Shown here one piece after another: positions 2,957-34,056 of a stretch of DNA of 64,000 nt. Positions within the stretch are counted from its first letter, which is position 1. Every line of letters starts with the position of its first letter. The notes under the pieces are model-generated. The model had not been told where the DNA came from, ran no database searches, and worked only from the letters and a program-made list of their open reading frames with translations. The stretch spans positions 310,001 through 374,000 of the forward strand of contig KE159810.1 in assembly GCA_000403495.2 (NCBI GenBank), read 5' to 3'. A program made the translations under genes and the position numbers. This DNA is from Lachnospiraceae bacterium 10-1 (GTDB taxonomy: Bacteria > Bacillota > Clostridia > Lachnospirales > Lachnospiraceae).

Positions 2957-3313
2957 TTATTTTTTCATTTTTGGATTAAAAATAAGACTTGCCAGATATC
3001 CAAAAATAAGCGCTGCGGAAGTGCCTACCGCCCCTGCCTTAAAGCCTCCCATAAACAATCCCATAAATCCCTCTTTATCTACTGCTTCTTTTACCCCTTT
3101 CATGAGTACATTCCCAAAACCAAGAAGGGGTACTGATGCGCCTGCACCTGCAAATTCCACAAAAGGCTGATAAGCGCCAAATACACTTATCAGTGCGCCA
3201 AGGCATACCAAAAGCACCATAATACGGCCAGGCATCATTTTTGTTTTTTCCATCAGGATCTGGACCAGTGCACAGATAAGTCCTCCTACCCAGAATGCAT
3301 TAAAATAATCCAT
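2957..3313 (-). CDS. spoVAE: Stage V sporulation protein AE
   Basis: This is a 118-residue integral membrane protein of the SpoVAC/SpoVAE family, with a glycine-rich membrane segment (FWVGGLICALVQILM), a central FAGAGASVPLLGFGN motif and a C-terminal helix. SpoVA proteins form the inner-membrane channel that moves dipicolinic acid into the forespore and out during germination. The ATG at 3313 is preferred over one 10 codons upstream because AAAGGAGG stands 6 nt in front of it. The gene is alone, detached from the rest of spoVA; spoVAA-AB, spoVAD and spoVAC lie 6, 21 and 31 kb away. A sigma-G-like promoter is proposed at 3348-3376. Confidence 0.92.
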   Translation of the reverse strand: MDYFNAFWVGGLICALVQILMEKTKMMPGRIMVLLVCLGALISVFGAYQPFVEFAGAGASVPLLGFGNVLMKGVKEAVDKEGFMGLFMGGFKAGAVGTSAALIFGYLASLIFNPKMKK

Positions 3314-3347
3314 GATAACCTCCTTTTTAACAGTTGTTTTCATGGAT

Positions 3348-3376
3348 TATTTTGTGTTGCTTTTTAAAATTTATAC
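3348..3376 (-). promoter_or_regulatory. Candidate sigma-G promoter for spoVAE
   Basis: Read on the minus strand, GTATA (3372-3376) is followed after 17 bp by CAAAATA (3348-3354). The Bacillus subtilis sigma-G consensus is GHATR, 17-18 bp, CATNHTA, so the only departure is A for T at the third position of the -10. The -35 lies just before the GH31 stop region, 35 bp upstream of the spoVAE start. This is inferred from pattern and from the similar arrangement before spoVAC. Confidence 0.4.
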
Positions 3377-5661
3377 TTTGATTTTGTTTTGACTAAGATC
3401 TGGCCATATTCCCGATAACCATAATGATTTTTTTCAATTTCTACCATTCCATCATGATTAATAAGCATGTACTCATTGTAAATACCTTCCTGGTACTTAA
3501 AATCCTCACCGTTGTCCTGATAATGAATGTAACTTCCTTCCCCAGGATAAGCTTCCAAAATCAAAAGATCATCCTTATCCCTTCCCACATGAGTTCTGAC
3601 CGGATATTTGGGGATAACCGCTCCGGCCTTTACATAAATAGGGCACACATCAAGAGGTGCGCTTCTAATAAAAAACTGTTCCCCTTTTTTTTCCTCGCCT
3701 GTCCAGTAATCATACCATTTTCCTTTAGGCAGATAAACCAGCTTTTCTCTTGCCCCCTGTTCCACCACAGGAGAAATTAAAAGCCGGTCTCCCAGCATAA
3801 ATTCATCATTCCGGTTTTTTACATTTTCATCCTTTTCAAACTCAAGTACCAAGGGGCGCATCATTGGAATTCCGGTAAGTTCACATTCCCGCATCAGGTC
3901 ATAAAGATAAGGAAGCAGCTCGTAGCGCAGGTTCATATATTTCCGGCTGACAGACAAAACCTCTTCTCCAAACTGCCAGGGCTCTTGTGCCTTACATCCC
4001 TTTGCACAATGATCCCTGAAAAGTGGTGAAAAACATCCCAGCTGTATCCATCTTGCAAACAATTCCGGCGTACAGTCGCTTCCAAAGCCGCCCACATCCG
4101 TACCAATAAAATTAAGCCCGGAAAGCCCTAAATTACACAATTGTGGAATTGCCATGCGGATATGGGACCATATACTGTGATTATCCCCTGTCCATCCTGT
4201 GGTGTACTTTTGAGATCCGCTGTAGCAGGCCCGGGTGATCACAAAAGGACGCTTCCCGGAAAATTCTTTCCAGCCTTCGTAAGTTGCTTTTGCCATATTG
4301 TGTCCGTAAATATTATGCATCTCCAAATGAGTGGATGGCTGGTCTTCGTCTGTAAATACCACCTCATCCGGCAAAGGGCCGCGAAAACTTGCAGGTTCAT
4401 TCATATCATTCCATACCCCTGCCACACCCATATCAATCAGGAATTTTTGCTTTTCCGCCCACCATGTGCGTACCTTGGGATTTCCAAAATCAGGGTATAC
4501 CGCGTCTCCCGGCCAGACTTCATTTACATAAACCTCTCCCTCCGGCGTCCTGGCAAAATAGCCTTCCTTTATCCCTTCCTCATATACCTGATAATCCTTT
4601 TCCACCTTTACACCCGGATCAATTATGGTAACAGCCTTAATTCCCATGTCCTTAAAATCCGAAAGAACCTTTCTTCCATCTTGATAGGTTTCCTGATTCC
4701 AGGTAAAAACTTTATAGTGATCCATATAGTCAATATCAAAATGAATGCAGTCACAGGGCAATTCATATTTTCTCATTTTTTTTGCAATGTCGCGTATTTC
4801 CTCTTCTGATTCATAGCCCCATCTTGACTGATGAAATCCTAATGTCCAAAGCTGCTGCATTGGAGATCTGCCTGTAAGATTCGTGTAACCTGTAAGCACA
4901 TCCTTAAGATTTTTTCCGGCTATGAAATAATAGTCTAAATTTCCCTTATCCGCACCAAACACATAATAATCTTCACTTTCTTTTCCCAAATCAAAATATG
5001 TCTTATTATGATTGTCGAAGAAAACGCCATATGCCCCCTTTTCTTTCAGCACCAGCATAAAAGGGATACTCTTATAAAGTGATTTAAAGTTATCTTCCTG
5101 TGGATCCGGATTGTCCGTATTCCACATTTCATAGGCATAATGCCTTTTATTCAGGCATCCCATTTTATCTCCAAGCCCATAAATGCAATCCTTCTTATCC
5201 AGTGCCCTGATTTCCTGCACCTTAAACCCTTTACTTCCTTCCCGGGCTGCATGTCCCTCCTTTTCAAGAAGCTCCGCCGCCTCTTTGCTGAGTGTATTCC
5301 CGCTTTTTCTCTCTCCCCGGTAAGCAAGGCTTAAAGGCATCCCTTTATCATCATAAAAGTCCACGCAAAACCCATCACTGACTATAGCAGTCATTTTATT
5401 CGTGCTAATAACAACTCCTGACTCTTCCCATGACACCCTTTCCAGTTTTTTCTGACACGCATTTTCTCCGGAATTAAGCCTTTTTCCAAGCTCTCCTTCA
5501 ATTGCCCTGGTTCGATGCCCCATACCATTATAGTCAATGAATACATTAAAAATATCTTCGGAAATCATTTCAAGGCAAGGCCTTACACCCTCATCTGCTC
5601 CCTCAAATCGGAAAAAAACCTTCCCGCCTTCTACCTGATATTCCGTTAGTTTTTTAAACAT
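3364..5661 (-). CDS. Glycoside hydrolase family 31 alpha-glycosidase
   Basis: The 765-residue protein has an N-terminal beta-sandwich, a TIM-barrel catalytic domain and C-terminal beta domains, the usual GH31 order. The nucleophile aspartate is in GVWNDMNEPASF (about residue 417) and the acid/base aspartate in TTGWTGDNHSIWSH (about 492). Family members cleave terminal alpha-glucosides, alpha-xylosides or sulfoquinovosides; no signal peptide is seen, so it acts on imported oligosaccharides. The ATG at 5661 follows GGGGAGG, so the 25 codons upstream that stay open are not translated. Its start overlaps the DMT transporter stop by 8 bp, implying translational coupling. alpha-Glucosidase is the likeliest activity, but substrate is not certain. 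Confidence 0.92.
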   Translation of the reverse strand: MFKKLTEYQVEGGKVFFRFEGADEGVRPCLEMISEDIFNVFIDYNGMGHRTRAIEGELGKRLNSGENACQKKLERVSWEESGVVISTNKMTAIVSDGFCVDFYDDKGMPLSLAYRGERKSGNTLSKEAAELLEKEGHAAREGSKGFKVQEIRALDKKDCIYGLGDKMGCLNKRHYAYEMWNTDNPDPQEDNFKSLYKSIPFMLVLKEKGAYGVFFDNHNKTYFDLGKESEDYYVFGADKGNLDYYFIAGKNLKDVLTGYTNLTGRSPMQQLWTLGFHQSRWGYESEEEIRDIAKKMRKYELPCDCIHFDIDYMDHYKVFTWNQETYQDGRKVLSDFKDMGIKAVTIIDPGVKVEKDYQVYEEGIKEGYFARTPEGEVYVNEVWPGDAVYPDFGNPKVRTWWAEKQKFLIDMGVAGVWNDMNEPASFRGPLPDEVVFTDEDQPSTHLEMHNIYGHNMAKATYEGWKEFSGKRPFVITRACYSGSQKYTTGWTGDNHSIWSHIRMAIPQLCNLGLSGLNFIGTDVGGFGSDCTPELFARWIQLGCFSPLFRDHCAKGCKAQEPWQFGEEVLSVSRKYMNLRYELLPYLYDLMRECELTGIPMMRPLVLEFEKDENVKNRNDEFMLGDRLLISPVVEQGAREKLVYLPKGKWYDYWTGEEKKGEQFFIRSAPLDVCPIYVKAGAVIPKYPVRTHVGRDKDDLLILEAYPGEGSYIHYQDNGEDFKYQEGIYNEYMLINHDGMVEIEKNHYGYREYGQILVKTKSKYKF

Positions 5662-6571
5662 AGTTTTCCTCCCCTTTCTTTTTCTTATCCGGTAGTTGCA
5701 CCAAAATAACTGCGCCAAAGACCAAGCCACATCCAAGCAGCTCCCTTTCGCTTAACGCCTGATCTAAAATCACCCATCCTGCCAGCATGGAAATTACCGA
5801 TTCCATTGATAAAATCAAAGATGCAACCGTAGGATCCGTATCCTTTTGGCCTACCACCTGAAGAGTATATGCCACGCCGCAGGACATAATTCCTGCATAG
5901 GCAAGAGGAATCAGACCGTCAATAAAATTTTGAAGAACTGGTTTTTCCACCAGCAAAGCAATCCCGCTGCAAATAACCCCTGCTGTCAAAAACTGAATGC
6001 AGGAAAGTTCTATCCCGTCTGTTTTAGGTGAAAAATAATCAATTACCAAAATATGAATGGAAAACAGGATTGCACAGATAAACACATATGCATCCCCCTT
6101 ACTTAATGCAAGTTTTTCACTCATGCACAGCAGGTACATGCCAAAAGCTGCAAGCAGCGCGCCAATCCAAACCTTTCCGGATACCCTTTTTTTCAAAAAA
6201 ATTCCCATAATAGGTACTATAATAATGTACAATGTGGTGATAAATCCTGCTTTACCTACTGTTGTATACTGAATCCCTATCTGCTGAAGAAGCGATGCAA
6301 AGCAAAGCACCAGACCGCAGCAGACCCCGCCCAGCACAGCGTTTTTTCCGTCTTTTTCTTTTTCCCATTTCTTTTGGCCTTCTGTATTTTGCTTTCCCCT
6401 GCGGAAAATTATCAAAGGCATAAGGACAACGCTTCCCATCAAAAACCTTGCCCCATTAAAGGAGCAAGGCCCCATGTAATCCATACCTACGCTTTGTGCC
6501 ACAAAAGCAACTCCCCATATAAATGCTGCCAAAAATAACAGAAAGCTGCTTCCTAATGCTGCTTTTTTCAT
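5654..6571 (-). CDS. DMT-superfamily transporter (EamA family)
   Basis: The 305-residue protein has about ten hydrophobic segments in two EamA repeats, starting with SSFLLFLAAFIWGVAFVAQ; the second half contains the typical SLILSMESVISMLAGWVILDQ helix pair. The family includes exporters and importers of amino acids, nucleosides, sugars and drugs, and the sequence does not say which is used here. A basic loop of about 20 residues follows the second helix. It lies between the shikimate-kinase-like gene (42 bp upstream) and the GH31 gene, whose start overlaps its stop by 8 bp. Confidence 0.88.
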   Translation of the reverse strand: MKKAALGSSFLLFLAAFIWGVAFVAQSVGMDYMGPCSFNGARFLMGSVVLMPLIIFRRGKQNTEGQKKWEKEKDGKNAVLGGVCCGLVLCFASLLQQIGIQYTTVGKAGFITTLYIIIVPIMGIFLKKRVSGKVWIGALLAAFGMYLLCMSEKLALSKGDAYVFICAILFSIHILVIDYFSPKTDGIELSCIQFLTAGVICSGIALLVEKPVLQNFIDGLIPLAYAGIMSCGVAYTLQVVGQKDTDPTVASLILSMESVISMLAGWVILDQALSERELLGCGLVFGAVILVQLPDKKKKGEENYV

Positions 6572-6613
6572 CTCTGTGTAAACCTCATTTCCATAAACGC
6601 TTTTTACTCAAAT

Positions 6614-7117
6614 CTATTTCCATTCTACCTGAGCTGCAATCAATTCCATCACATTTCTCAAATCAATACCGCTGCAGTCAACTGTAATGTCCGCATATTT
6701 CTCATAAAGAGGAGTTCTCTCCTCATAAAGCTCCCGCAGGCTGCTGCCTTTCTTTATCACCACACCACGCTTATGGAGATCTCCCAGCCGCACTTCCAGT
6801 TCCTCATAGGGCAGCTTTAAATAAACCACCGTCCCTGTTTTCTTAAAATGACGCATGGCTTCCTCTCCGTACACCGCGCTCCCGCCAGTGGCAATAACAG
6901 ACTTATCTGCCTGTATTTGTGCATTGATTTTATTTTCCAGTACAAGAAATCCTGCTTCCCCCAATTCTTCAATCAATTGGTAAAGCAATTTTCCACTTTG
7001 CTCCTGAATCACAAGATCGCTATCTATAAACTGAAAGCCCAGCTTTTTGGCAAGCACCACTCCTACCGTACTTTTGCCGGAACCAGGCATTCCAATTAAA
7101 ATAATATTATTTTTCAT
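6614..7117 (-). CDS. aroK: Shikimate-kinase-like P-loop kinase
   Basis: The 167-residue protein carries a Walker A loop (GMPGSGKST), the FIDSD motif whose second aspartate normally contacts shikimate, an ATGGSAVY segment and ERTPLYEKYAD, matching the RxPLY motif. In family enzymes the FRxxE motif supplies the arginine that binds the shikimate carboxylate; here the same place reads GFLVLE, so leucine replaces arginine, and the GGG loop is GGS. It may therefore phosphorylate something else. AAGGG stands 5 nt before the ATG at 7117; a GTG one codon earlier is the alternative. It starts 8 bp after ridA. No other shikimate gene is nearby, so the gene symbol is a family name rather than a proven function. 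Confidence 0.75.
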   Translation of the reverse strand: MKNNIILIGMPGSGKSTVGVVLAKKLGFQFIDSDLVIQEQSGKLLYQLIEELGEAGFLVLENKINAQIQADKSVIATGGSAVYGEEAMRHFKKTGTVVYLKLPYEELEVRLGDLHKRGVVIKKGSSLRELYEERTPLYEKYADITVDCSGIDLRNVMELIAAQVEWK

Positions 7118-7125
7118 CACAGCCC

Positions 7126-7503
7126 TTACTTCACCACCGCAATTACTTCCACTTCACACAGTACTTTTTTAGGAAGTTCCTTTACCGCAACGCAGCTTCT
7201 TGCAGGCTTTCCGGTAAAATATTTCTCATAAACACCGTTAAATGCTGTAAAATCATCCATTTCCGCTAAAAAGCAGGTGGTTTTTACCACATTTTCAAAA
7301 TCAGTTCCTGCCTCTTTTAAAATCTCGCTTACATTTTTCATTACCTGCTCCGCCTGAACAAGAATATCCCCCTGAGCAATCTGTCCTGTCTCGGGAACAA
7401 TTGGAATCTGTCCTGAAGCAAATAAAAATCCATTTGCAATGATTCCCTGAGAATAAGGACCAATCGCTGCCGGCGCTTTTTTCGTTGATACTTTAGTTAA
7501 CAT
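7126..7503 (-). CDS. ridA: RidA family enamine/imine deaminase
   Basis: The 125-residue length and sequence are those of RidA (YjgF/YER057c/UK114). Characteristic segments are AIGPYSQGI near the N-terminus, LFASGQIPI, and the pair PARSCVAV and CEVEVIAVVK, which hold the arginine and glutamate of the deaminase active site. RidA trimers hydrolyse reactive 2-aminoacrylate and other enamines produced by PLP enzymes such as threonine dehydratase. The gene sits 25 bp downstream of a small conserved protein and 8 bp upstream of the kinase-like gene, so it is part of the unit starting at 7756. Confidence 0.95.
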   Translation of the reverse strand: MLTKVSTKKAPAAIGPYSQGIIANGFLFASGQIPIVPETGQIAQGDILVQAEQVMKNVSEILKEAGTDFENVVKTTCFLAEMDDFTAFNGVYEKYFTGKPARSCVAVKELPKKVLCEVEVIAVVK

Positions 7504-7528
7504 AATATTTATCTCCTTTATCTTTTAT

Positions 7529-7756
7529 TTACTCAAATTCTGCTGTTACATAAAACCCGCGTTCGTTTTCAACAACCCGGATCACTTTGCCTTTTCGGGC
7601 AAGCATTCTTTCCCTGAACGGGACATTTCCCGACATGGCCAAAGCAGGATCAATGGTATAATAATAATTACTTGGAAGCAGACCTTCCGTCACTGTAATT
7701 TCATCCCCTTCCTTTAAAAGTCCGGGACGTTCCATTTTAAACTCCATCTGCCGCAT
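7529..7756 (-). CDS. Small conserved protein of unknown function
   Basis: This 75-residue soluble protein begins MRQMEFKMERPGLLKEGDEI and I do not recognise a named family. It has no membrane segment, cysteine pair or obvious catalytic motif; the middle (about 20-55) looks like a small beta-barrel with an RERMLARKGKVIRVV stretch. The ATG at 7756 follows GGAGG by 7 nt. A longer reading starting at 7807 is excluded because that codon would sit inside the -35 box of the gene's own promoter. It is first in the run of genes ridA, kinase-like, DMT and GH31. Confidence 0.7.
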   Translation of the reverse strand: MRQMEFKMERPGLLKEGDEITVTEGLLPSNYYYTIDPALAMSGNVPFRERMLARKGKVIRVVENERGFYVTAEFE

Positions 7757-7778
7757 ATGCAATCCTCCATACTTATCT

Positions 7779-7807
7779 ATTGTAATAGGCTTATTCAAAT
7801 TTTTCAA
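7779..7807 (-). promoter_or_regulatory. Sigma-A promoter for the 7756-3364 gene cluster
   Basis: On the minus strand TTGAAA (7802-7807) and TACAAT (7779-7784) are separated by 17 bp, a good vegetative promoter. The predicted transcript begins about 15-20 nt before the ribosome site of the 75-residue gene. Its -35 is only 5 bp from the -35 of the divergent promoter at 7813. Confidence 0.7.
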
Positions 7808-7888: not shown

Positions 7889-8974
7889 TTGAAAAAAGTA
7901 CTTAAACGGATCATTATTATTCTATTAGTAATTGTTATTGCATTCGGTGCTTACGCAGGATATGTTTTCGGTGCCTACTACCGGCTGCCGGACAACTTGA
8001 CTCTTGAAGTCAAAAGAAATGGTGAGAATTCTCACTTTGACGAAGACTTTGCCCTCACTCCCGGCGATGCATATTTCATTATGACCTATAATATTGGCTT
8101 TGGCGCCTACCGGAAAGATTACAGCTTTTTTATGGACGGAGGAAAATCCTCCTGGGCAAAAGATGAAGAAAGTTTGATTGCTGCTGTCTGTGGAATGGGA
8201 GAAATCATTACGGATGTAAGCCCTGACTTTGTGCTTTTACAGGAAATTGATGTTGATGGCACCCGTTCTTACCATGTAAACGAACTGGAACTTTTAAACC
8301 AGTTTTTAAAAGGATATTATTATAATTATGCCCAGGCTTATGATTCTCCTTTTTTATTTTTCCCTCCCTGGGAGCCACATGGCGCAAATAAAAGCGGACT
8401 GGCAGTTTATTCCCGTGCAGAAATTACGGAAAGCATACGCAGAAGCCTGCCCATATCGGAATCCTTCAGCAAATTGGTTGATTTAGACAGATGCTACTCC
8501 ATATCCAGAATCCCCACTGAAAACGGACGCCAATTATGTATTTATAATGTGCATGCATCAGCTTACGGCGGAAGCGATGAAATAAGACAGGCGCAGCTTT
8601 CTACCCTTTACGGAGATATGGAAGCCGATTATGCAAAAGGTAATTATGTAATCTGCGGTGGTGATTTCAATCATAACCTGAAAGAAAATGACCAGGAAAA
8701 CGCACCGGAATGGGCCTATCCCTTCCCCCGTGAATCTTTACCGGAAGGCTTCCATATGGCTTTGGATGTTGTTTCACAGGAAGATAAAGGAGCAGTTGTC
8801 CATAATACCTGCCGCAGTGCCGAAACCCCTTACGATCCCCAGACCACTTATACAGTCACCTTAGACGGATTCATTGTTTCTGACAATGTCAGCGTCAATT
8901 ATTATCAGCACATGGACTGGGGGTATGAGTTCTCAGATCATGATCCGGTTTTAATGCAGTTTATATTAGAATAA
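7889..8974 (+). CDS. Membrane-anchored endonuclease/exonuclease/phosphatase-family hydrolase
   Basis: The 361-residue protein has an N-terminal membrane anchor (residues about 8-27, IIIILLVIVIAFGAYAGYVF) followed by an extracytoplasmic EEP domain. Catalytic motifs are visible in order: MTYNIGFGAY (Asn), LLQEIDVDGT (metal-binding Glu), NVHASAYG, GGDFNHNL (Asp/Asn) and the terminal SDHDPVLMQF (Asp-His). Members cleave phosphodiester bonds of nucleic acids, inositol phosphates or sphingomyelin; the substrate here is unknown. The start codon is TTG, 8 nt after AAGGAGA, and the coding frame has no earlier ATG. The gene is monocistronic, ending just before the sigma-G-like promoter of spoVAA. Confidence 0.88.
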   Translation: MKKVLKRIIIILLVIVIAFGAYAGYVFGAYYRLPDNLTLEVKRNGENSHFDEDFALTPGDAYFIMTYNIGFGAYRKDYSFFMDGGKSSWAKDEESLIAAVCGMGEIITDVSPDFVLLQEIDVDGTRSYHVNELELLNQFLKGYYYNYAQAYDSPFLFFPPWEPHGANKSGLAVYSRAEITESIRRSLPISESFSKLVDLDRCYSISRIPTENGRQLCIYNVHASAYGGSDEIRQAQLSTLYGDMEADYAKGNYVICGGDFNHNLKENDQENAPEWAYPFPRESLPEGFHMALDVVSQEDKGAVVHNTCRSAETPYDPQTTYTVTLDGFIVSDNVSVNYYQHMDWGYEFSDHDPVLMQFILE

Positions 8975-8976: not shown

Positions 8977-9006
8977 GAATAAAATCAGGTTAAAAAAGCC
9001 ATACTA
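8977..9006 (+). promoter_or_regulatory. Sigma-G-type forespore promoter for spoVAA-spoVAB
   Basis: GAATA (8977-8981), 18 bp, CATACTA (9000-9006) is an exact match to the Bacillus subtilis sigma-G consensus GHATR-N18-CATNHTA. It begins 2 bp after the stop codon of the upstream gene and ends 29 bp before the spoVAA reading frame. Position, sequence and the sporulation role of the downstream genes agree. Confidence 0.72.
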
Positions 9007-9035
9007 GCCTATATATTTTTCACAGAAAGAAAGAG

Positions 9036-9677
9036 ATGGTTAGAAACATGGCAAATTTGGTTTTGTATTTAAAAGCAGAACAAAATGCGGAGGTAATGGA
9101 AGAACACGTATGTGTCAAAGACATTGCCTCCCTTTATTGTGCAGATAAATCCGTCTGTGCAAAGGTAAAATCCCTAAAAATACACCAGTTTTATGAAAAA
9201 GATAAAAAACGTCAGGTAATCAGTATTCTGAAAGTGATACAACTGATTGAAAAAGAATGTCCCAATGTGAGTGTGGAAAATATTGGAGAAAATGCCACTT
9301 TGATTGAACTGATAAATGTAAATAAGCATAAAGGTCCTGTGCAGTGGCTTAAAATGATCTTTGTTGCCGCAATCAGCTTTTTCGGTACAGGCTTTACAAT
9401 AATGGCCTTTCATAATGATATAGGAATTAATGAAATTTTTTCCAAAGTTTATGAACAAGTCATGGGCTATTCTACCGACGGGTACAGTATTCTGGAAGTG
9501 TCTTATTCCATTGGGCTTGCAGCCGGCATTATCCTGTTCTTCAACCACATTGGAGGCCGGCGGATCACAAAAGATCCAACTCCCATCGAAGTGGAAATGC
9601 GTGTATATGAAACAGATGTGAATAAAGCACTGATTGAAACAGCAGACAGGGAGGGAAAGACAATTGATGTTTCTTAA
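9036..9677 (+). CDS. spoVAA: Stage V sporulation protein AA
   Basis: This 213-residue protein has a soluble N-terminal half (about 1-105; VLYLKAEQNAEV, IEKECPNVSVENIGENATLIEL) and a C-terminal membrane half with two segments (about 110-130 and 155-175), the SpoVAA layout. Its following gene is SpoVAB-like, as in the Bacillus spoVA operon. SpoVAA is a forespore inner-membrane component of dipicolinate transport. The start is uncertain: the ATG at 9036 and another at 9048 (MANLVLYLKAEQ) both have weak ribosome sites, and the second gives an N-terminus nearer the family. It overlaps spoVAB by 11 bp. Confidence 0.85.
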   Translation: MVRNMANLVLYLKAEQNAEVMEEHVCVKDIASLYCADKSVCAKVKSLKIHQFYEKDKKRQVISILKVIQLIEKECPNVSVENIGENATLIELINVNKHKGPVQWLKMIFVAAISFFGTGFTIMAFHNDIGINEIFSKVYEQVMGYSTDGYSILEVSYSIGLAAGIILFFNHIGGRRITKDPTPIEVEMRVYETDVNKALIETADREGKTIDVS

Positions 9678-10161
9678 ACAGATTTTTTTAGGCGCCTGTG
9701 GACTTAGCTTTGGACTTTTGGCCTCTGCCGGCGTATTTACCGTCTTAGTATCCGTAGGATTAATTCCAAGATTTGCCGGAAAATTTCATGTGGCAAAAAA
9801 AGTATTTTTTCTGGAAGAGGCCGTGGTATTTGGCACTCTGGCAGGAGGATTTTTCAGTGTATTTGGCAGATACGGAGAAATTGGAAAATGGATGCTTGCA
9901 AGGCAGCCATTTGGAGCTGATACGTCTATAATCTGGCAGTTTGCGGGAAGTGCTTTTTTATGTATGTTTGGATTGTTTGCCGGTATTTTTGTAGGGTGCC
10001 TTGCACTTGCAATTGCAGAAATGCTTGATTCCATTCCCATTTTTGCAAGAAGAATCAGCTTCCGGCATGGCATTGGACTGGCGATTGCCGCCACTGCTGC
10101 CGGAAAGCTGATCGGAAGTCTGATTTATTTTTCCAGAGAAATTTATTTATCGGGTATGTGA
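9667..10161 (+). CDS. spoVAB: Stage V sporulation protein AB
   Basis: This 164-residue protein has about five membrane segments with conserved glycine-rich turns (FGLLASAGVFTVLVSVGLIPRF, GTLAGGFFSVFGRYG, GIFVGCLALAIAEMLDSIP), matching SpoVAB in size and composition. It acts with the other SpoVA membrane proteins in dipicolinate uptake by the forespore. GGAGGG precedes either a TTG at 9664 or the ATG at 9667; both are in frame and the choice is not decided. Its 3' end runs 19 bp into the convergent lipoprotein gene on the other strand, so their transcripts are antisense to one another at the tails. Confidence 0.85.
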   Translation: MFLKQIFLGACGLSFGLLASAGVFTVLVSVGLIPRFAGKFHVAKKVFFLEEAVVFGTLAGGFFSVFGRYGEIGKWMLARQPFGADTSIIWQFAGSAFLCMFGLFAGIFVGCLALAIAEMLDSIPIFARRISFRHGIGLAIAATAAGKLIGSLIYFSREIYLSGM

Positions 10162-12176: not shown

Positions 12177-12279
12177 ATCAATATTTCTTTCCCTTCTTTG
12201 AAAAGACGTGAAACTGATTCCATATAAACATCATACAATATTCTTTTATAAAACACTATACCAAACTTTTTTTGTAAAT

Positions 12280-12293
12280 ATATTGATCAATAT
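12280..12293. promoter_or_regulatory. 14-bp palindrome upstream of the lipoprotein gene
   Basis: ATATTGATCAATAT is a perfect palindrome 104 bp upstream of the lipoprotein start at 12176 and 13 bp from the terminator of the giant gene. It could be an operator, but no regulator is adjacent, and AT-rich palindromes of this length can occur by chance. Confidence 0.3.
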
Positions 12294-12305
12294 TGGAATA
12301 CAGGC

Positions 12306-12345
12306 AAAACAGTCAGTTGAGTAAAATGCTTCAACTGACTGTTTT
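12306..12345 (-). terminator. Rho-independent terminator of the giant surface-protein gene
   Basis: A perfect 15-bp stem (12306-12320 with 12331-12345) closes a 10-nt loop, with T-runs on both sides. It lies 23 bp beyond the stop codon of the 3628-residue protein and separates it from the lipoprotein gene. Confidence 0.85.
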
Positions 12346-12368
12346 TAAGAGGTTTTATAAAAAGTATT

Positions 12369-24559: not shown

Positions 24560-24588
24560 AAAAAACCTCCAGATGATTTACTTTTTGA

Positions 24589-27194: not shown

Positions 27195-27196
27195 TT

Positions 27197-28081
27197 TTAA
27201 TCCTCCTTTATGCTCCGGTTTGTCCAAAGGGAAAATAAAATAATAATCCCAAATATAATTATGGATACTGCTGATGACAGACCATAATTGTTTGACACAA
27301 ATGCATTCTGATGGGCATAAGTAATAATTGTCTGCAGGCTTGCCCCTGAAAGCGCTCCCTTTTGCATAGTCAGCAGATAAATAATGTCAAACTGCTTAAA
27401 GGTTGTAAAAGTAGTCATGATTACCGCAGGCATAATCACCACCCGCAGGGCAGGAACCGTAATATGAAAATGCTTTGCCCAAAAACCCGCCCCCTCCATC
27501 TGGGCACTTTCATAACTGCTTTTATCTATGCTCTGAAGAGCACCATCTATGGTCATAATCATAAAGGGCAGCGCCATCCACAGGTTCAAAACCATACAGG
27601 ACAAAAATGCAGGCACATTTCTTGACAAAAAATTTACTTTTTCCAGTCCCATCGAAACCAAAACCTTATTAACCAACCCAAATTCCGTATTAAAAATTCC
27701 CACGCGCCACAAGAGAATCGAAATATAGGAAGGCATTGCCCAGGGAAACATAAGCAGTGTTTTATAAATCCTTCCGATTTTCAGTCCTTCCGTATTAAGT
27801 CCCAGAGCAATAAAGAAAGCGGCCGATACCTGAATCACCATATTGAATACTGTCCATAAAATTGTGGTAAGCAGCGCTGACAAAAATCCCGAATCCACCT
27901 TTGTGAGCGCCCTTGCATAATTGGAAAGCCCAATCACTTTAAAATCAAACCAATGATAAAGATTCATATTGGTAAGTGAAATATACCCTGTATATAAAAC
28001 AGGAAATACAATAATAATTGCGATCAATATCATTGCGGGCATACTCTGCAGCCAGGGTATCAGCTTTTTACGCTTCTTCAT
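27197..28081 (-). CDS. Maltodextrin-type ABC importer permease (MalF-like)
   Basis: The 294-residue protein has six predicted membrane segments, beginning WLQSMPAMILIAIIIVFPVLYTGYISLTN, and the EAA motif region SYESAQMEGAGFWAKHFHITVPAL. It forms the membrane pore with the MalG-like partner. The gene starts 17 bp after the binding-protein gene and ends 2 bp before the next permease, an operon arrangement. Substrate is inferred as maltose/maltodextrin from the adjacent GH13 enzyme; sequence alone gives only carbohydrate uptake. Confidence 0.9.
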   Translation of the reverse strand: MKKRKKLIPWLQSMPAMILIAIIIVFPVLYTGYISLTNMNLYHWFDFKVIGLSNYARALTKVDSGFLSALLTTILWTVFNMVIQVSAAFFIALGLNTEGLKIGRIYKTLLMFPWAMPSYISILLWRVGIFNTEFGLVNKVLVSMGLEKVNFLSRNVPAFLSCMVLNLWMALPFMIMTIDGALQSIDKSSYESAQMEGAGFWAKHFHITVPALRVVIMPAVIMTTFTTFKQFDIIYLLTMQKGALSGASLQTIITYAHQNAFVSNNYGLSSAVSIIIFGIIILFSLWTNRSIKED

Positions 28082-28098
28082 TGCTCTCCTCCTTATCT

Positions 28099-29400
28099 TT
28101 ACTGCATATCTGCAATTGCTGTCAATGCATCCTGCTGACAGCGTTCTGCTGCTGTCTTTACATCTTCTCCCGATTTATTAACTGCTGCAAGCAACCCTTC
28201 CGCAGGCCCCCACATAACGCTCATCTCCGGTATATTGGGCATAGGCTGTGCAGTTTCGGCTGTCTCTTTGATTGCAATAATCATCTCATTGGCTTCCACT
28301 TCCGGATTTGCATAAGCTTCCATATTGGCCGGCGCGCAGTTAGAACCAAGTGCAAGGGCTTCTCCAACTTCCCTCCCTGCCATTACCTTAAGTACCTGTG
28401 CAATAGCATCTTTCTTTTCATCCACTGCATGTTTTAAAACACCTACTCCCTGCACCCCTGAAAATGGAGCCAGTCCGTTCCCGTTAGGAAGCTTAAAATC
28501 AGATAACGACTTGATTCCCAGATCAATTCCTGCCTCTTTGATTCCTGAAACCAGCCAGGGACCGCCTATAATCGCCGCTGCCTTTCCTTCATTAAACAAA
28601 GTGGTTACCGTATTATAATCTCCGTCAGCCTGTAAAGCTGCAAATTTCTTATTGTATTCCACCGCTTCAATTGTCTGTGCAAGATTCAGTCCCGGCTGTC
28701 CGTTTTTATCAATAACAGCTCCTCCAAATCCATTAATAAAGGGCGCTACATTATATGCGGTGGAATGCTGGTTAACAACTGCATAGGTTCCTGCCCCTGT
28801 GTCTGTGTGTGCTTCCATATAAGCATATAATTCTTCGGTAGTTTCCGGCACTTCCCCTTCCCAAAGCGCTTTATTATACATAAACAAAAGAGTTTCAAAA
28901 TAAACCGGCATAAAGTATTGAACATCCTTATAAGTTCCCGCTTCTACCGTCATGGGAAGCAGTCCTGAAAACACATCTTCTCCTGCCACATCAGAAATAG
29001 GGGCTGCAATTCCCATCTCTACAAAGGTTCCTAACGTATCATGTGCATAAAAATACAGATCAGGTCCGTTTGCCGCATCATTTCCATATAGCTGCAGTTG
29101 ATCGGTAAGACCGCTTTTTTTCTCAAAAGATATGCTTATTTGTTGATCCTTTAATGCTTCATTCACCGTAGCTTCTATCTTTCCCATAATTGCCTCGTCT
29201 CCGTCATGCCATATTTTGACTTCCACAGGCTCTGTTTCTTCCCCTGGCACTTCTGTGTTTTCTACGGCCTCCACTGTATTTTCTTCTTCGGCGCCTCCTG
29301 CTTCCTGTGCTGTATCTGCCACATTATTCCTGCTGCCGCAGCCGGTAAGCATCCCTGCCGCAAGACATCCGCAAACTATCATACTCAATATCCTTTTCAT
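28099..29400 (-). CDS. Maltose/maltodextrin-type solute-binding lipoprotein (MalE-like)
   Basis: The 433-residue protein has a lipobox (LAAGMLTGCGSRNN), an acidic linker (about 30-60), and a family 1 binding fold: VEVKIWHDGDEA, NGPDLYFYAHDTLGTF, GKAAAIIGGPWLVSGIKEAG, LAPFSGVQGVGV and the terminal MSVMWGPAEGLLAAVN, all typical of MalE/MdxE. It captures oligosaccharide outside the cell for the two permeases downstream. GGAGG precedes the ATG by 8 nt. It is the first gene of the unit malE-malF-malG-GH13 and faces the divergent LacI regulator. Confidence 0.92.
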   Translation of the reverse strand: MKRILSMIVCGCLAAGMLTGCGSRNNVADTAQEAGGAEEENTVEAVENTEVPGEETEPVEVKIWHDGDEAIMGKIEATVNEALKDQQISISFEKKSGLTDQLQLYGNDAANGPDLYFYAHDTLGTFVEMGIAAPISDVAGEDVFSGLLPMTVEAGTYKDVQYFMPVYFETLLFMYNKALWEGEVPETTEELYAYMEAHTDTGAGTYAVVNQHSTAYNVAPFINGFGGAVIDKNGQPGLNLAQTIEAVEYNKKFAALQADGDYNTVTTLFNEGKAAAIIGGPWLVSGIKEAGIDLGIKSLSDFKLPNGNGLAPFSGVQGVGVLKHAVDEKKDAIAQVLKVMAGREVGEALALGSNCAPANMEAYANPEVEANEMIIAIKETAETAQPMPNIPEMSVMWGPAEGLLAAVNKSGEDVKTAAERCQQDALTAIADMQ

Positions 29401-29473
29401 ACTTATTTCCTCCTTTTTTAGGAAACTGCTTTCTTGATTTTCCTTTGATTTGTTATTTCTACATAGAATCAGT

Positions 29474-29485
29474 TAAATGCATTTA
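29474..29485. promoter_or_regulatory. 12-bp palindrome in the malE-like leader region
   Basis: TAAATGCATTTA is a perfect palindrome 74 bp upstream of the malE-like start, close to where a minus-strand -10 could lie after TTGAAA at 29504-29509. It may be an operator for the divergent LacI protein, but its core differs from the AGCGCT site near the regulator's own promoter. Confidence 0.3.
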
Positions 29486-29550
29486 CTGCTTATATACCTA
29501 TATTTTCAACTTTTATTTCACTTTTTGCAATCATTTAAATACACTTTTTA

Positions 29551-29579
29551 TTGACTTTGTTAGGAAAGCGCTATACTAT
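29551..29579 (+). promoter_or_regulatory. Promoter of the LacI regulator with an operator-like core
   Basis: TTGACT (29551-29556) and TACTAT (29574-29579) are spaced by 17 bp. Within the spacer, GGAAAGCGCTATAC (29563-29576) has the AGCGCT centre common to LacI-family and CcpA operators (TGNAANCGNTNNCA-like). This placement suits autorepression, or catabolite control by CcpA. Confidence 0.55.
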
Positions 29580-29631
29580 AAAAGTGATTTTAGATATGTT
29601 CACTATAGTTTTATCCCATCAGGAGGTTTTT

Positions 29632-30657
29632 ATGGCTGTTACAATAAGTGATGTGGCAAAGGAAGCCGGCGTTTCCATTTCCACCGTATCAAAGGTATTA
29701 AATAACTGGACCACTATTTCTCCTGCCACTACTGAAAGGGTACGGACAGTTATGGCCCGCCTTAACTATACTCCCAACGCCCGGGCAGTCAGCTTTGCAA
29801 GGCAAAATACCAGAAACATTGTCTATCTGACTGCACTAAGCAAAAATGAAGCCTACCGGAATCCTCATATGTTTGATATTATGTGCGGCGTCTACAGCCA
29901 GCTTGCCAAGTGCGGATATACGCTTTCTCTTGTGGACACCTCCGAAGATACATACCCGTGTGAATCCGTCTCCAGGGTTATTTCCCAGAAATGTGCTGAC
30001 GCTTTGATTGTACATGGCTCCGCTATTACCAAGCAGGAAACTGCAGATTTGATTTTATCCTCAGGATTTCCCCATATCATTATCGGACATCCGGGTTTTG
30101 ACAGCGCCCTTTGCTGGATTGACACCAATCATGGGCTTGCAGGACAGTACGCCGCCATGCATTTAATCAACTGTGATTACACAAAAGCCGCTTTTATTGG
30201 CGGACGGAAGACAGATGTTATTTCTAATCAGCGTTTAAAAGGTTTTATAGGAAAAATGCGGGATTATGGAATCCGCATTGCTCCTGAGTGCATTGGATAC
30301 ACCGATTCCGGCACTTTGGAAAGCTATCAGGCGGCTGAAAAAATGCTTCAGCTCCCTCCCTCCAAACGCCCTCTGGCTATTGTATGTGAAAACAGTTGTA
30401 TCGCAGTAGGCGTTTCCAGAGCAATCCACGACTGCGGCTTAAAGGTTCCTGACGAAATTGCTTTTCTTACCTTTGACTCTTTCCCTTACTCCGGCATTAT
30501 AGATCCTCCTCCCACCATTGTAGACATTGATGTCTATGATATGGGCGCCCAGGCAGGAGATATTATTCTGCGCAAATTGAAAAATCCCAGCCTGCTTGTG
30601 CAAAGCTATACCACCCTGCCTATGATTTTACAGGGCAAAACAACACATCCTATATAA
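29632..30657 (+). CDS. LacI-family transcriptional regulator
   Basis: The 341-residue protein has an N-terminal LacI helix-turn-helix (VTISDVAKEAGVSISTVSKVLNN, hinge helix near 50-60) and a periplasmic-binding-protein-like effector domain. The ATG at 29632 has AGGAGG 6 nt upstream and gives the canonical MAVTISDVA start; the 27 earlier open codons would run through the promoter. It is divergent from the malEFG-GH13 unit, so control of that unit by a maltodextrin-derived ligand is likely. An operator-like sequence lies in its own promoter. Confidence 0.93.
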   Translation: MAVTISDVAKEAGVSISTVSKVLNNWTTISPATTERVRTVMARLNYTPNARAVSFARQNTRNIVYLTALSKNEAYRNPHMFDIMCGVYSQLAKCGYTLSLVDTSEDTYPCESVSRVISQKCADALIVHGSAITKQETADLILSSGFPHIIIGHPGFDSALCWIDTNHGLAGQYAAMHLINCDYTKAAFIGGRKTDVISNQRLKGFIGKMRDYGIRIAPECIGYTDSGTLESYQAAEKMLQLPPSKRPLAIVCENSCIAVGVSRAIHDCGLKVPDEIAFLTFDSFPYSGIIDPPPTIVDIDVYDMGAQAGDIILRKLKNPSLLVQSYTTLPMILQGKTTHPI

Positions 30658-30659
30658 TA

Positions 30660-30692
30660 TAGAAAAAGCGTGGTGTTTTTACTCCACCACGC
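30660..30692 (-). terminator. Terminator overlapping the end of the SGNH hydrolase gene
   Basis: On the minus strand GCGTGGTG (30685-30692) pairs with CACCACGC (30668-30675), followed directly by TTTTTC. The stem includes the last codons of the hydrolase, so termination occurs within a few bases of the stop. Confidence 0.8.
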
Positions 30693-31728
30693 CATGTTCC
30701 AGCAAAAATTGTTTCCATATTTCATCATAGGCTCCCAGTAAATGAATCTGGTCAAAGGTATAATCCTCATGAAGATTTCCCTCTTCATCACAAACTACTT
30801 CGTTTACATCAATATAAAAAATCTGCTTATTGTCAGCTAATGTTGCAATTGCATTGTTTCTGGCATTAATATTGCTGTTATTAAAAATAGCATCTGAATT
30901 GCTCTTTTTCCCCGATACTCTCATAATACCCTGAATAAAAATCCTGGCATCCGGTTCCAATGCATGAATAGTATCCACTACTTCCGTATATTTCTCCATA
31001 AAATCTTCCGTGGTGCCTCTGCCCAGCTCATTGATTCCCACCATCAGATATATTTTTCCATAATCCTTATTAGAAAGTGCTTCTTCCACAGTTCCCTGCC
31101 CGTCAAAATTTTCCTCCATCACCTTATATATGGTAAGAGAAGTTTCGCAATAAAAGTCTGCGTGCTCTGACAAATCTGTATAATCACGAAGGCCGACTGT
31201 TCTGGAGTCTCCAATAAACAGTGCATCATCAAAATAGCTCTCATCTACTGTGGCAAATTCATATTCCGCCGCACGTTTTGTCCCTGCATCTCCGTAAATA
31301 TCTGCTGAAATATGATTTAAATATTCTTCATGCGTGCTTTCTCTAAGGGGCTCTAACCGTTCTAACGGTGCCTCTGGAACAGGTGTCGGCTCCGGTGAAG
31401 GTGTCGGTTTGGGAGATGGCGAAGGTGTTATGGCAGGAATGCCTTCCTCCCCCGGCTGATTCTCCCCGTCACTGCCTTCCTCTGAAAGTTCTTCGGTTTC
31501 CTGCACATCTCCCCGCGCCATTACTTCCTGATTTTCATGTATAAACAGCTCCCAAGGATATATGGCATCATTTATTGCTGTAAAAACAATTGATAAAACC
31601 GGTTTTTTCAGCGGATCATACTCCTGATCCGCATATATGGTTCTTCTTCCTGCCGCCCCCACAATTGTAAGGAGCACACCAATACTGATTAGTAAAATAA
31701 CAACAGGACATTTCTTTATAAACTTCAT
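30679..31728 (-). CDS. Membrane-anchored SGNH/GDSL hydrolase
   Basis: The 349-residue protein has one N-terminal membrane segment (about 8-26, PVVILLISIGVLLTIVGAA), a Pro/Thr/Ser/Glu-rich linker (about 90-125, with PSPKPTPSPEPTPVPE) and an SGNH domain. Catalytic blocks are LFIGDSRTVGL (Ser, about 174), MVGINELGRG (Gly/Asn), and FDQIHLLGA (Asp and His, about 329). Such proteins attached to AlgI/DltB-type acyltransferases move or remove O-acetyl groups on extracellular polysaccharides, as AlgJ/AlgX and PatB do. The MBOAT gene lies upstream on the same strand, separated by 266 bp that contain a repeat element. A strong terminator ends the gene. Confidence 0.85.
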   Translation of the reverse strand: MKFIKKCPVVILLISIGVLLTIVGAAGRRTIYADQEYDPLKKPVLSIVFTAINDAIYPWELFIHENQEVMARGDVQETEELSEEGSDGENQPGEEGIPAITPSPSPKPTPSPEPTPVPEAPLERLEPLRESTHEEYLNHISADIYGDAGTKRAAEYEFATVDESYFDDALFIGDSRTVGLRDYTDLSEHADFYCETSLTIYKVMEENFDGQGTVEEALSNKDYGKIYLMVGINELGRGTTEDFMEKYTEVVDTIHALEPDARIFIQGIMRVSGKKSNSDAIFNNSNINARNNAIATLADNKQIFYIDVNEVVCDEEGNLHEDYTFDQIHLLGAYDEIWKQFLLEHGVVE

Positions 31729-31771
31729 TTGTATTACCTATTTTCCCTTCAACTTGTAACTTTTCTTTAGA

Positions 31772-31998
31772 ATTTCCTTTGACATGCAGGCATGGTGCGT
31801 TTTTCTTCTTTTCTCTTCTCCACTACCCTAACAGTTCAGCCCCAGCCATTCGCAAAGACGGATGCTTCGCATCCTTCGCCGCTTCGCGGCTTTTCCTTTG
31901 CTTCATGTTTGGGCGCTCCGCTCAAACATATGATGATATTTCCTTTGACATGCAGGCATGTCACGTCCATATCATCATATGTTTGGCTGAACTGTTAG
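31772..31998. repeat. Intergenic element of nested inverted repeats with a 23-bp direct repeat
   Basis: A perfect 14-bp inverted pair (31828-31841, CTAACAGTTCAGCC, with 31985-31998) encloses a perfect 17-bp pair (31923-31939 with 31969-31985) and four smaller hairpins: GGATGC-TTC-GCATCC (31860-31874), GCCGC-TTC-GCGGC (31878-31890), a 10-bp stem with one mismatch (31906-31928), and GACATGC-AG-GCATGTC (31947-31962). A 23-bp direct repeat is perfect at 31772-31794 and 31938-31960. The right arm covers the MBOAT stop. No reading frame is convincing. It resembles REP or MITE-type mobile intergenic repeats; as RNA from either strand it would be heavily folded. Confidence 0.7.
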
Positions 31999-33371
31999 AA
32001 CTTCAAATACATAAACGGGTTGCCGGCGCTGATGGACAGGTGGTAAATCGAAAACCAGAAAATAATGACCAGCAGCAATATGACAATTAAACTTTTCTTG
32101 TGTTTTTCATAATACTCGAAAACCGCCGGTATACAGAGCAGGATGCCTGCTGCAAAGTAGATTCCATAGTTTTCTGCATATCTGATAATATCCTGAGAAT
32201 TTACCGCTATACCGGCTCCCCCAATAAATGGGAACAGTCTTCCAAAATAAATGCCAAGCTGCCATAAATCTGTAATAGCAAATATCACCCAGGTAAGGGG
32301 AATCAGTAATAGTACGTACAAGTTTCCGATTACCGGAATCTTTTGCAGTTTTTTTCCGTAAAACAGCTTTTCCAGTATAATGAAAAGACCAAGAACTACT
32401 CCCCATATTATAAAATTATAACCATTTCCATGCCAGATTCCGGTTAGAATCCAGACCAATGCAAGGTTAAGTATCAGCCTTCCCTTACTGCACCGGCTTC
32501 CGCCCATGGGAATGTATATATAGTCCTTAAACCAACTGCCCAATGTCATATGCCATCTTCTGTAAAAATCTGCAATGCTTTTTGCCGCATAGGGATGATG
32601 AAAATTTTCTATAAAATCATAACCCAGCATAACCAAAAGGCCGGAGGCCATCAGGGAATATCCCCAAAAGTCAAAGTAAAGACGTAAGGAATAGCCTGCT
32701 GCTCCAAACCAGGCCAATGGGGTAGATATGCTTTGAAATCCAATCATCTGCAGATCATTCCATAAAATCGCAAGACGGTCTGCCAAAAGCACTTTCATTC
32801 CCAGCCCTAATATAAAATATTTTAAGCCTTCTTCAAACTTCTCTAAGCTGCTGCTCTTTTCCCATCCAAATTCCCCTTCATTATAGCGCATAATAGGACC
32901 GGATGTCACTTGGGGAAACATAGTAAAATACAGTGCGGTGCTTCTCAACTTAGGCATGCTCCAGATCTCTCCCCGAAGAACATCTGCCTGAAAAGAAATC
33001 ATTTTAAAAATGTAAAAACTGATACCTAATGGAAGAAGCGCGCTGTCTGCAAAAGTTGCAAGTCCCTTAAAAACTGCAAGTACAAGTACATCAAAAATAA
33101 TTGTTCCAATTACCAGGCGCTTACGTTTTTTGTTCTGCCAATCCTGTACCAAAAAACCTTCTCCCAGTTTCCATGCCTGCCGCCCCAGCAAATAATTAAC
33201 CAGTGTGGTAAAAATAAGTACAAAAATAAAAACCGGCTCCCCAAAAGCATAAAAAATCAAACTGCCTGCCAGCAATGCAATATCCTTATATTTAACAGGT
33301 GTTGCAAAATATACAATTAAAAAAATCGGTAAAAACCGAAAAATAAATTCCAAACTGGAAAAACTTACCAT
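31995..33371 (-). CDS. MBOAT-family O-acyltransferase (AlgI/DltB type)
   Basis: The 458-residue integral membrane protein has about 11 segments. The conserved MBOAT histidines are seen in DFYRRWHMTLGSWFKDYIYIP (about 273) and LTGIWHGNGYNF (about 313). AlgI-type proteins pass acetyl groups across the membrane to exopolysaccharide or cell-wall polymers. With the membrane-anchored SGNH hydrolase downstream, it forms a probable O-acylation module. No dltA or dltC is adjacent, which argues against teichoic acid D-alanylation. Its last codons form the right arm of the repeat element. Confidence 0.92.
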   Translation of the reverse strand: MVSFSSLEFIFRFLPIFLIVYFATPVKYKDIALLAGSLIFYAFGEPVFIFVLIFTTLVNYLLGRQAWKLGEGFLVQDWQNKKRKRLVIGTIIFDVLVLAVFKGLATFADSALLPLGISFYIFKMISFQADVLRGEIWSMPKLRSTALYFTMFPQVTSGPIMRYNEGEFGWEKSSSLEKFEEGLKYFILGLGMKVLLADRLAILWNDLQMIGFQSISTPLAWFGAAGYSLRLYFDFWGYSLMASGLLVMLGYDFIENFHHPYAAKSIADFYRRWHMTLGSWFKDYIYIPMGGSRCSKGRLILNLALVWILTGIWHGNGYNFIIWGVVLGLFIILEKLFYGKKLQKIPVIGNLYVLLLIPLTWVIFAITDLWQLGIYFGRLFPFIGGAGIAVNSQDIIRYAENYGIYFAAGILLCIPAVFEYYEKHKKSLIVILLLVIIFWFSIYHLSISAGNPFMYLKF

Positions 33372-33514
33372 AACATTCCCCTGCTCTCATCATTTGAACT
33401 AATACACTCTGTTTTTTATTGTATCATTCCTACTTTAAAATCACAAGAATGTTCCCCAATTTTTCATACTCCTTATTATAAACTGTTTATACGGACAAGA
33501 TATTAAGAAGATAT

Positions 33515-33543
33515 GTATATTTGCAAAAAATGATGACAAACTA
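33515..33543 (+). promoter_or_regulatory. Candidate sigma-G promoter for spoVAC
   Basis: GTATA (33515-33519) matches the sigma-G -35 and, after 17 bp, CAAACTA (33537-33543) matches CATNHTA except for A at the third position. The spoVAE site (GTATA-N17-CAAAATA) shares the same deviation. It ends 42 bp before the start codon. Confidence 0.42.
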
Positions 33544-33585
33544 AACACAAAAAGAAGGATAAAAAGAAAGGAATCAAATAAAAAC

Positions 33586-34056
33586 ATGAGTGAACCTAAG
33601 AATCCAGAACAAAGAAATTTAGAAAAAGAATATGAAGAATATGTAAAAATGATTACTCCAACCCACAATCTGTACCTGCAGATGTTAAAAGCATTTATTG
33701 TGGGGGGGATTATCTGTGTAATCGGGCAGTTTCTTCTGAACTTTGCGGGAAACCGGCTGGGAATGGATAAAGAAATGGCCGGCAGCTTCTGCTCCCTTAT
33801 CCTTGTATTTGCCAGTGTTCTTTTGACGGGCCTGAATATTTATCCTTCCATTGTAAAATTCGGCGGTGCTGGAGCTTTAGTTCCCATTACCGGATTTGCA
33901 AATTCCGTGGCAGCGCCGGCTGTAGAATTTAAAAAAGAAGGCCAGGTATTTGGTATCGGCTGTAAAATATTTACCATTGCCGGTCCGGTAATTTTATACG
34001 GCATTTTTACCAGTTGGATACTGGGGTTATGTTATTGGCTGATCACGCTGCTATGA
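33586..34056 (+). CDS. spoVAC: Stage V sporulation protein AC
   Basis: The 156-residue protein is a SpoVAC-family membrane protein: a short cytoplasmic N-terminus with YVKMITPTHNLYLQMLKAF, then four membrane segments including VGGIICVIGQFLLNFAG, SLILVFASVLLTGLNIYP and FGGAGALVPITGFANSV, the motif shared with SpoVAE. SpoVAC is a mechanosensitive-type channel component needed for dipicolinate movement. AAAGGA lies 12 nt before the ATG. The gene is alone on the plus strand, its stop 5 bp from the convergent DUF6062 gene. A hairpin (34037-34062) spans both stops. Confidence 0.95.
   Translation: MSEPKNPEQRNLEKEYEEYVKMITPTHNLYLQMLKAFIVGGIICVIGQFLLNFAGNRLGMDKEMAGSFCSLILVFASVLLTGLNIYPSIVKFGGAGALVPITGFANSVAAPAVEFKKEGQVFGIGCKIFTIAGPVILYGIFTSWILGLCYWLITLL

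Follow-up and report, generated by a model that had tools for sequence, protein, structure and literature searches.

The spoVA genes are usually treated as a conserved forespore operon, and the question raised here is how this operon came apart in the gut bacterium Lachnospiraceae bacterium 10-1 and whether its genes can still act together. The stretch analysed, referred to as the window, comprises 64 kb (contig C11:310001-374000) of a genome of 4.57 Mb in 24 contigs with 100% completeness and 0.8% contamination; it holds spoVAE, spoVAA-spoVAB, spoVAD and spoVAC (in the following AE, AA, AB, AD and AC) as four separate units. An earlier interpretation made from the letters of this DNA, the sequence-only reading, had proposed that a spoVAA-AB-AC-AD-AE operon was broken by successive insertions and inversions, that regional proximity was kept and that function was probably retained. 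The explanation that is considered here to be very probable joins three elements: the operon was broken up stepwise, every unit is preceded by a forespore-type promoter sequence of its own, and the units would be co-expressed in trans.

All five frames are full length and free of internal stops, and the four units were found over 31 kb with exactly the positions and strands that the sequence-only reading had given (Table 1); a contiguous, co-directional AA-AB-AC-AD-AE or AC-AD-AE run is not present. The completeness of the set, as had been claimed, was confirmed by Pfam matches for the five intact genes, and the homologues of SpoVAC, SpoVAD and SpoVAE(B), which make up the core channel set, all matched above the Pfam cut-offs. 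AE matched PF03862 (1.4e-36) and TIGR02839 (4.7e-37; 126.8 bits, cut-off 131.1), and AD additionally matched the solved structures 3lma and 3lm6. The matches to TIGR02838, TIGR02839 and TIGR02845 fall just below the equivalog cut-offs; the match to PRK08304 exceeds its cut-off. The proposed search for another intact operon elsewhere was performed with profiles on the whole genome and yielded two matches to PF03862 and one each to PF07451, PF12164 and PF13782, every one inside the window; therefore, no second or intact spoVA operon was found in these profile searches. The genes between the units, which occupy both strands, mostly match unrelated families, as had been supposed; a 92-amino-acid (aa) open reading frame (ORF), o92, matches no family.

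A point absent from the sequence-only reading is that each unit has its own sigmaF/sigmaG-like, i.e. forespore-type, promoter sequence, with candidate -35 and -10 boxes upstream of four of the four units. Alignments of the upstream regions of genus-like loci revealed for all four units the pattern G(N)ATA, 16-18 bases and an ACTA/AATA-type -10 box, clearest for AD and AA, which we take to resemble the sigmaF/sigmaG consensus. According to a C. difficile study, the sigmaG consensus of that organism is very similar to the one of B. subtilis, and its spoVAC-AD-AE genes are listed as a sigmaG operon (PMC3789822). A rigid sigmaG regular expression missed most sites, and a two-box weight matrix was used instead, which was trained on three units and tested on the fourth in comparison with control upstream regions. 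The held-out area under the curve was 0.968 for AC (n=29), 0.992 for AA (n=20), 0.998 for AD (n=36) and 0.998 for AE (n=13), and a share of 0.69 (AC), 0.85 (AA) and 0.86 (AD) of the held-out upstream regions scored higher than the 99th percentile of the respective shuffles. Among the controls, one upstream region of an M24 peptidase gene passed the shuffle threshold, in one of the four tests. With the window in the training set, the next-best site on either strand of the 64 kb scored 14.3, below all four unit sites; the held-out ranks in Table 1 were obtained with a matrix trained without the respective unit, the window and its nearest relative, L003.

The broken state is a property of the whole genus and no peculiarity of this one locus. 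AC just upstream of AD was not seen in any of the 23 other genus genomes; the two genes share a contig in 21 genomes, on opposite strands in 20 of these, and lie on separate contigs in two (G014, G023). In 11 of the 23 genomes AE and AD occur on one contig; they are adjacent in none of these, the shortest distance being 4.9 kb. The idea of a break-up was therefore right in kind and too local in scope, and the claim that regional proximity was kept holds for the window and not throughout the genus, as illustrated by these AE counts and by G007, in which AE and AD lie deep inside different contigs. In G007 (L034/L249), AC follows AD on the same strand at a distance of about 0.2 kb, together with DUF6062 and TetR genes; EEP (an endonuclease/exonuclease/phosphatase family gene), AA, AB and AE were not found in the region fetched.

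For the family, 200 Lachnospiraceae genomes, one per genus, were sampled. AA was above the cut-off in 129 of the 200 genera; 120 of these also have AC among the matches listed, and in 94 of the latter AA directly precedes AC in the same orientation. With the best PF03862 match taken as AC, 121 genera had both AC and AD among the matches listed; the two genes are adjacent in 48, less than 50 kb apart in 31 (the genome of the window included), more than 50 kb apart in two and on different contigs in 40. In the AD regions fetched from 125 genera, in which linkage was called from start-based gaps, AC and AD were linked in 48, not linked in 71 and on too little contig in six; the corresponding numbers for AD and AE were 103, 21 and one. 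The AC-AD break thus recurs across Lachnospiraceae. In L125, L127 and L183 the entire AA-AB-AC cassette is inverted beside AD and divergent from it, which represents a different break-up route. The gene-order comparison across Lachnospiraceae that the sequence-only reading had suggested was extended to 16 genomes from other families of the order; one had no spoVA match, and AC and AD are adjacent in all remaining 15, with AE adjacent as well in 12 and on another contig in three. These outgroup families indicate that the intact order is ancestral.

The ancestral operon was probably larger than the five-gene operon assumed before, with the order spoIIAA-spoIIAB-sigF-small ORF-spoVAA-AB-AC-AD-AE. 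In L170, from the same family, spoIIAA, spoIIAB, sigF, a 62-aa ORF, AA, AB, AC, AD and AE form a single run, the spoIIAA and spoIIAB counterparts being identified by model matches, and in L185, from another family, sigF is linked to the AA-AB-AC-AD-AE run. Among the 66 family genera with sufficient contig, sigF is linked to AA in 46; another 59 genera had too little contig. In the genome of the window, sigF is located on another contig (C1:962841), preceded by two ORFs which, judged by eye, we take to be spoIIAB and spoIIAA.

Successive insertions and inversions, as had been claimed, are borne out by intermediates. L228 has kept sigF-AA-AB-AC-AD, and only the AD-AE junction is broken, by a block of o92, RidA, kinase and EamA transporter genes; in L130 this break before AE is accompanied by a separation of AC from AD by several kb; L038 shows AA-AB-AC without sigF in front, followed by MBOAT-GDSL-AD-o92-RidA-kinase-EamA-AE. 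The genus backbone, complete in L241-L246, reads o169-TetR-DUF6062-AC(inverted)-MBOAT-GDSL-AD-EEP-AA-AB-o92-RidA-kinase-EamA-(GH31)-AE-M24 peptidase, where EEP, o92, o169 and GDSL are working names given in this analysis. The window departs from this backbone by an additional maltose block before AD, giant surface-protein and solute-binding-like genes after AD and an inversion of EEP-AA-AB; EEP is on the AD strand in all 22 relatives showing EEP, and the L003 sequence stops before EEP. In a SpoVAD tree of 64 hand-picked rows out of 208, the 24 genus-like rows form a clade (100/97), and a clade of 47 rows (99/99) holds all 32 rows with o92, none having been seen in the fetched flanks of the other 15. 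The o92-RidA-kinase-EamA block between AD and AE marks this large Lachnospiraceae clade and was observed in none of the 17 rows outside it.

These living relatives suggest an order of breakage. The o92-RidA-kinase-EamA block would have entered between AD and AE, probably as the first insertion at this junction; DNA would then have entered between AC and AD, and the AA-AB-AC piece would have separated from sigF. Subsequently, AC would have been inverted, and AA-AB with EEP in front would have ended up flanked by AD and the o92 block. The steps specific to the window would be the gain of the maltose block, the gain of the giant surface-protein insertion and the inversion of EEP-AA-AB. On a FastTree of all 208 SpoVAD rows, the minimum numbers of changes were 31 for AC-AD, 15 for AB-AC, 16 for sigF-AA and six for AD-AE; in these counts many branches are weak (10 of the 31 independent AC-AD pairs are on supported branches), and breaks and fusions are indistinguishable.

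The association between breaks and promoter-like sites was determined in the family set with a matrix trained on genus-like loci only, a score of at least 10 being counted as a site. AD carries a site in 41 of 71 split and in 0 of 48 linked cases (Fisher p 8.5e-13), AC in 12 of 15 versus three of 64 (p 3.6e-9) and AE in five of nine versus three of 103 (p 4.8e-5), with kinship ignored in all three tests. As background, shuffled split upstream regions of the family set pass at 2.8-4.0%, and other genes in the same loci at 25/854, or 19/516 where the intergenic upstream region measures at least 100 bp. In the genus-like loci, all split and mostly training loci, sites precede AA in 20/21, AC in 27/29, AD in 35/35 and AE in 12/13 cases. 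Of ten independent AD pairs on supported branches, a mean of 5.6 pointed in the same direction, 0 in the opposite direction and 4.4 showed no difference (median p 0.031). After this correction for kinship, the support for the association is modest. The view that spoVA in Lachnospiraceae is a natural replicated experiment, in which parallel AC-AD breaks were coupled to new forespore promoters and yielded autonomous one- or two-gene units, is one that we hold with evenly divided confidence.

The strongest competitor reverses this sequence of events: promoters would already have been present inside the intact operon before AC, AD and AE, and breaks would have been fixed only at these places. It is regarded as a possible but rather unlikely course, roughly a minority view; the few linked AE and AC genes with a site in the family sample, and AC of L038, which is linked to AB yet carries a site, speak for it, whereas the complete lack of sites among the linked AD genes speaks against it, although a short-lived intermediate could have escaped.

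Several points weigh against the stepwise break-up with own promoters and co-expression. The motif seed was picked after the alignments of all four units had been viewed, so the held-out tests were not fully blind; the held-out share above the shuffles' 99th percentile was just 0.31 for AE; and the upstream regions of ssp genes for small acid-soluble spore proteins (SASP), intended as positive control, had a median score of 8.4 (shuffles: median 3.8, 99th percentile 17.5). In 13 of 23 ssp loci the best match is NNATA-N17-ATACTAT-like, 128-179 bases upstream of the scanned end, and does not exceed the shuffles' 99th percentile. In the family set, AA split from sigF has a site in 3/20 and linked AA in 9/46 cases, i.e. 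no association, and at the threshold 30/71 split AD, 3/15 split AC and 4/9 split AE genes are without a site. Across L038-L082, sites were found for just 20/42 AD and 17/26 AE genes. In the kinship-corrected comparison, p for AD spans 0.008-0.5 over pairings, AC (six pairs, median p 0.125) and AE (one pair) are not significant, and AA gives no signal (five pairs, median p 1). Concerning the history, L184, one of two loci retrieved from other families, keeps the five spoVA genes in one run that has no sigF next to it, and the early steps were put in order from extant mosaics because the SpoVAD tree did not resolve the branches among L228, L130 and the L038 group. Furthermore, activity of the sites, their recognition by sigmaG (or sigmaF), co-expression of the units and a working channel are all inferred. 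Confidence in the joint explanation was lowered to its present, still high, level because of the weak held-out share of AE and the L184 locus.

The own promoter sequences likely let the broken cluster keep working. Each orphaned unit would start behind its own sigmaF/sigmaG-type promoter sequence, and a forespore sigma factor would most likely co-express the four units in trans; with such coordination, contiguity would be dispensable. A SpoVA complex transporting dipicolinic acid has been published for Bacillus, and the channel model places AC and AEb in the membrane and AD on the cytoplasmic face (PMC13059800). The proteins of the window would assemble the usual channel in the same way, with AC and AE in the membrane and AD on the cytoplasmic face, and this channel would load dipicolinic acid into the forespore and release it at germination.

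Across species of the genus, the intervals beside AD carry differing cargo, including an oligopeptide-type ATP-binding cassette (ABC) transporter, a CHASE2-cyclase, a sugar transferase and restriction genes (10 ORFs from five of eight intervals scanned; 7/10 matched Pfam at 1e-10), and in some members, such as L033, L035 and L036, the fetched 10 kb on the downstream side of AD showed neither AA-AB nor AE. The remaining closeness of the units therefore seems to reflect a dispersal that is not yet complete, without selection having to be assumed. The same cargo suggests that DNA enters here easily and could favour a reassembly of the pieces by horizontal transfer instead of a rearrangement of the resident operon. 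This is judged improbable, since all five genes are single copy, the intermediates form a graded series and sequence identity to relatives declines for AC, AA and AE roughly as it does for AD. Slightly less probable still is neutral decay, with the scattered genes as relics in a lineage that is losing sporulation. Genes of spoVA do get lost in Lachnospiraceae, as 64 of the 200 sampled genera lack a PF03862 match among the matches listed; against decay in the window stand the five intact frames, the conservation of the promoter-like sites in the genus and the presence of sigF and one SASP (ssp) gene in the genome, which also encodes a second SigF/SigG-group factor (310 bits to the SigF model). 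Moreover, the proportion of nonsynonymous differences (pN) between the five genes and five to eight relatives was 0.020-0.226 and that of synonymous differences (pS) 0.38-0.83 (stop-to-stop frames; pS mostly near saturation). As pN stays well under pS in each of the five genes, the spoVA proteins are under purifying selection, and the earlier view that function is probably retained is shared here. An assembly or annotation artefact, conceivable given that the relatives are mostly draft genomes or metagenome-assembled genomes (MAGs), is very unlikely because several independent assemblies show the same backbone, with inverted AC before AD and EEP-AA-AB after AD, including IMSAGC_005 (L011) and 1XD21-87 (L004), which are not marked as MAGs.

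Table 1. Units, promoter-like sites and intervening genes in the window
Feature	Position	Strand	Remarks
spoVAE	2957..3313	-	SpoVAEB-type membrane protein, 118 aa from ATG 3313; frame open to ATG 3343
AE-unit promoter-like site	3347..3376	-	GTATAA-N17 spacer-CAAAATAA; score 15.9, 4th in 64 kb; held-out rank 4
GH31 alpha-glucosidase	3364..5736	-	PF01055 1e-125; between EamA and AE in part of genus
EamA transporter / shikimate-kinase-like kinase / RidA / 92-aa ORF (o92) block	5654..7807	-	between AD and AE
EEP, endonuclease/exonuclease/phosphatase family	7889..8974	+	PF03372 9.8e-13; upstream partner of AA-AB in genus
AA-AB-unit promoter-like site	8977..9007	+	GAATAA-N18 spacer-CATACTAG; score 18.2, 1st in 64 kb; held-out rank 5
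spoVAA	9036..9677	+	PF12164 1.6e-26; single copy
spoVAB	9634..10161	+	PF13782 3.2e-30; single copy; overlaps spoVAA
insertion between AB and AD	10143..23255	-	solute-binding-like lipoprotein and giant surface protein
spoVAD	23522..24559	-	PF07451 4.6e-138; PRK08304 454 bits (cut-off 402); single copy
AD-unit promoter-like site	24588..24617	-	GCATAA-N17 spacer-AAAACTAT; score 17.9, 2nd in 64 kb; held-out rank 6
maltose/maltodextrin-type block	24631..30657	both	GH13, MalG-like, MalF-like, substrate-binding protein (-); LacI-type regulator (+)
GDSL hydrolase	30679..31728	-	PF13472
MBOAT acyltransferase	31995..33371	-	PF03062
AC-unit promoter-like site	33515..33544	+	GTATAT-N17 spacer-CAAACTAA; score 17.3, 3rd in 64 kb; held-out rank 3
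spoVAC	33586..34056	+	PF03862 1.5e-44; TIGR02838 155 bits (cut-off 164); inverted relative to AD and AE

Among the intervening genes, the presence of GH31 differs among relatives, and the order EEP-AA-AB is also found in relatives. The kinase of the o92 block scored best to NF040667 (homoserine kinase) with 173 bits at a cut-off of 197. Within the insertion between AB and AD, the 677-aa solute-binding-like lipoprotein (10143-12176, -) gave a weak match (26.1 bits, cut-off 26) and adjoins a 3628-aa surface protein (12369-23255, -) with List_Bact_rpt, Calx-beta and Ig-like domains; among 80 mapped loci, covered to no farther than 10 kb from AD, L003 alone showed a match over 40% of this giant protein, directly downstream of AD. 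The maltose block is situated upstream of the AD promoter-like site, has the same position in L012 and is absent from L003. The MBOAT and GDSL genes (30679-33371, -), possibly an O-acylation pair, precede AD in 31 of the 35 loci L003-L037 and also in L038. A scan of the window against Rfam returned nothing that reached the gathering score.

A separate observation concerns the leader of the single SASP gene at L105:1702-1786 (-), where a conserved hairpin-like inverted repeat with the consensus CTTCAGGATAAGC ... GCTTATCTTGAAG lies upstream of the ribosome-binding site; 16 further ssp loci from the genus have it at the corresponding position (17/23 aligned). For the SASP leader, no Rfam match at gathering score was obtained in the two ssp loci searched.

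The whole genus has spoVA as separate units, and the break points often coincide with promoter-like sites. The break-up of spoVA is thereby a concrete test case of operon dissolution without loss of function, in which it can be asked whether the promoter came before or after the break, and contiguity is a risky criterion for sporulation capacity in gut MAGs. No paper naming the spoVA operon together with Lachnospiraceae was found in the open-licence text of PubMed Central (PMC), where spoVAD and sporulation genes do occur with this family in other papers, among them one on Epulopiscium (PMC3416734), and the split is not claimed to be unpublished.

In comparison with known cases, the spoVA genes of the window represent a known system whose arrangement here is new and whose history is informative. 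Destruction of operons by insertion and rearrangement is a general concept, and insertions and inversions have likewise broken the spoVA operon with its genes being kept; what differs here is that a single developmental operon was broken in parallel, that many of the break points carry a promoter-like site and that intermediate states persist in living relatives. The B. subtilis spoVA operon, compared for these five genes, has homologous AA, AB, AC, AD and AE. It presumably lies downstream of spoIIA, and the succession of sigF and then spoVA is shared with many intact Lachnospiraceae; in contrast, the window has four units on both strands over 31 kb, apart from the sigF operon. The spoVAC-AD-AE operon of C. 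difficile (CD0773-CD0775), which is sigmaG-dependent, has the same core channel proteins and a forespore-type promoter sequence (PMC3789822). Unlike in that operon, AC, AD and AE of the window have separate promoter-like sites and unrelated neighbours, and AA and AB are also present.

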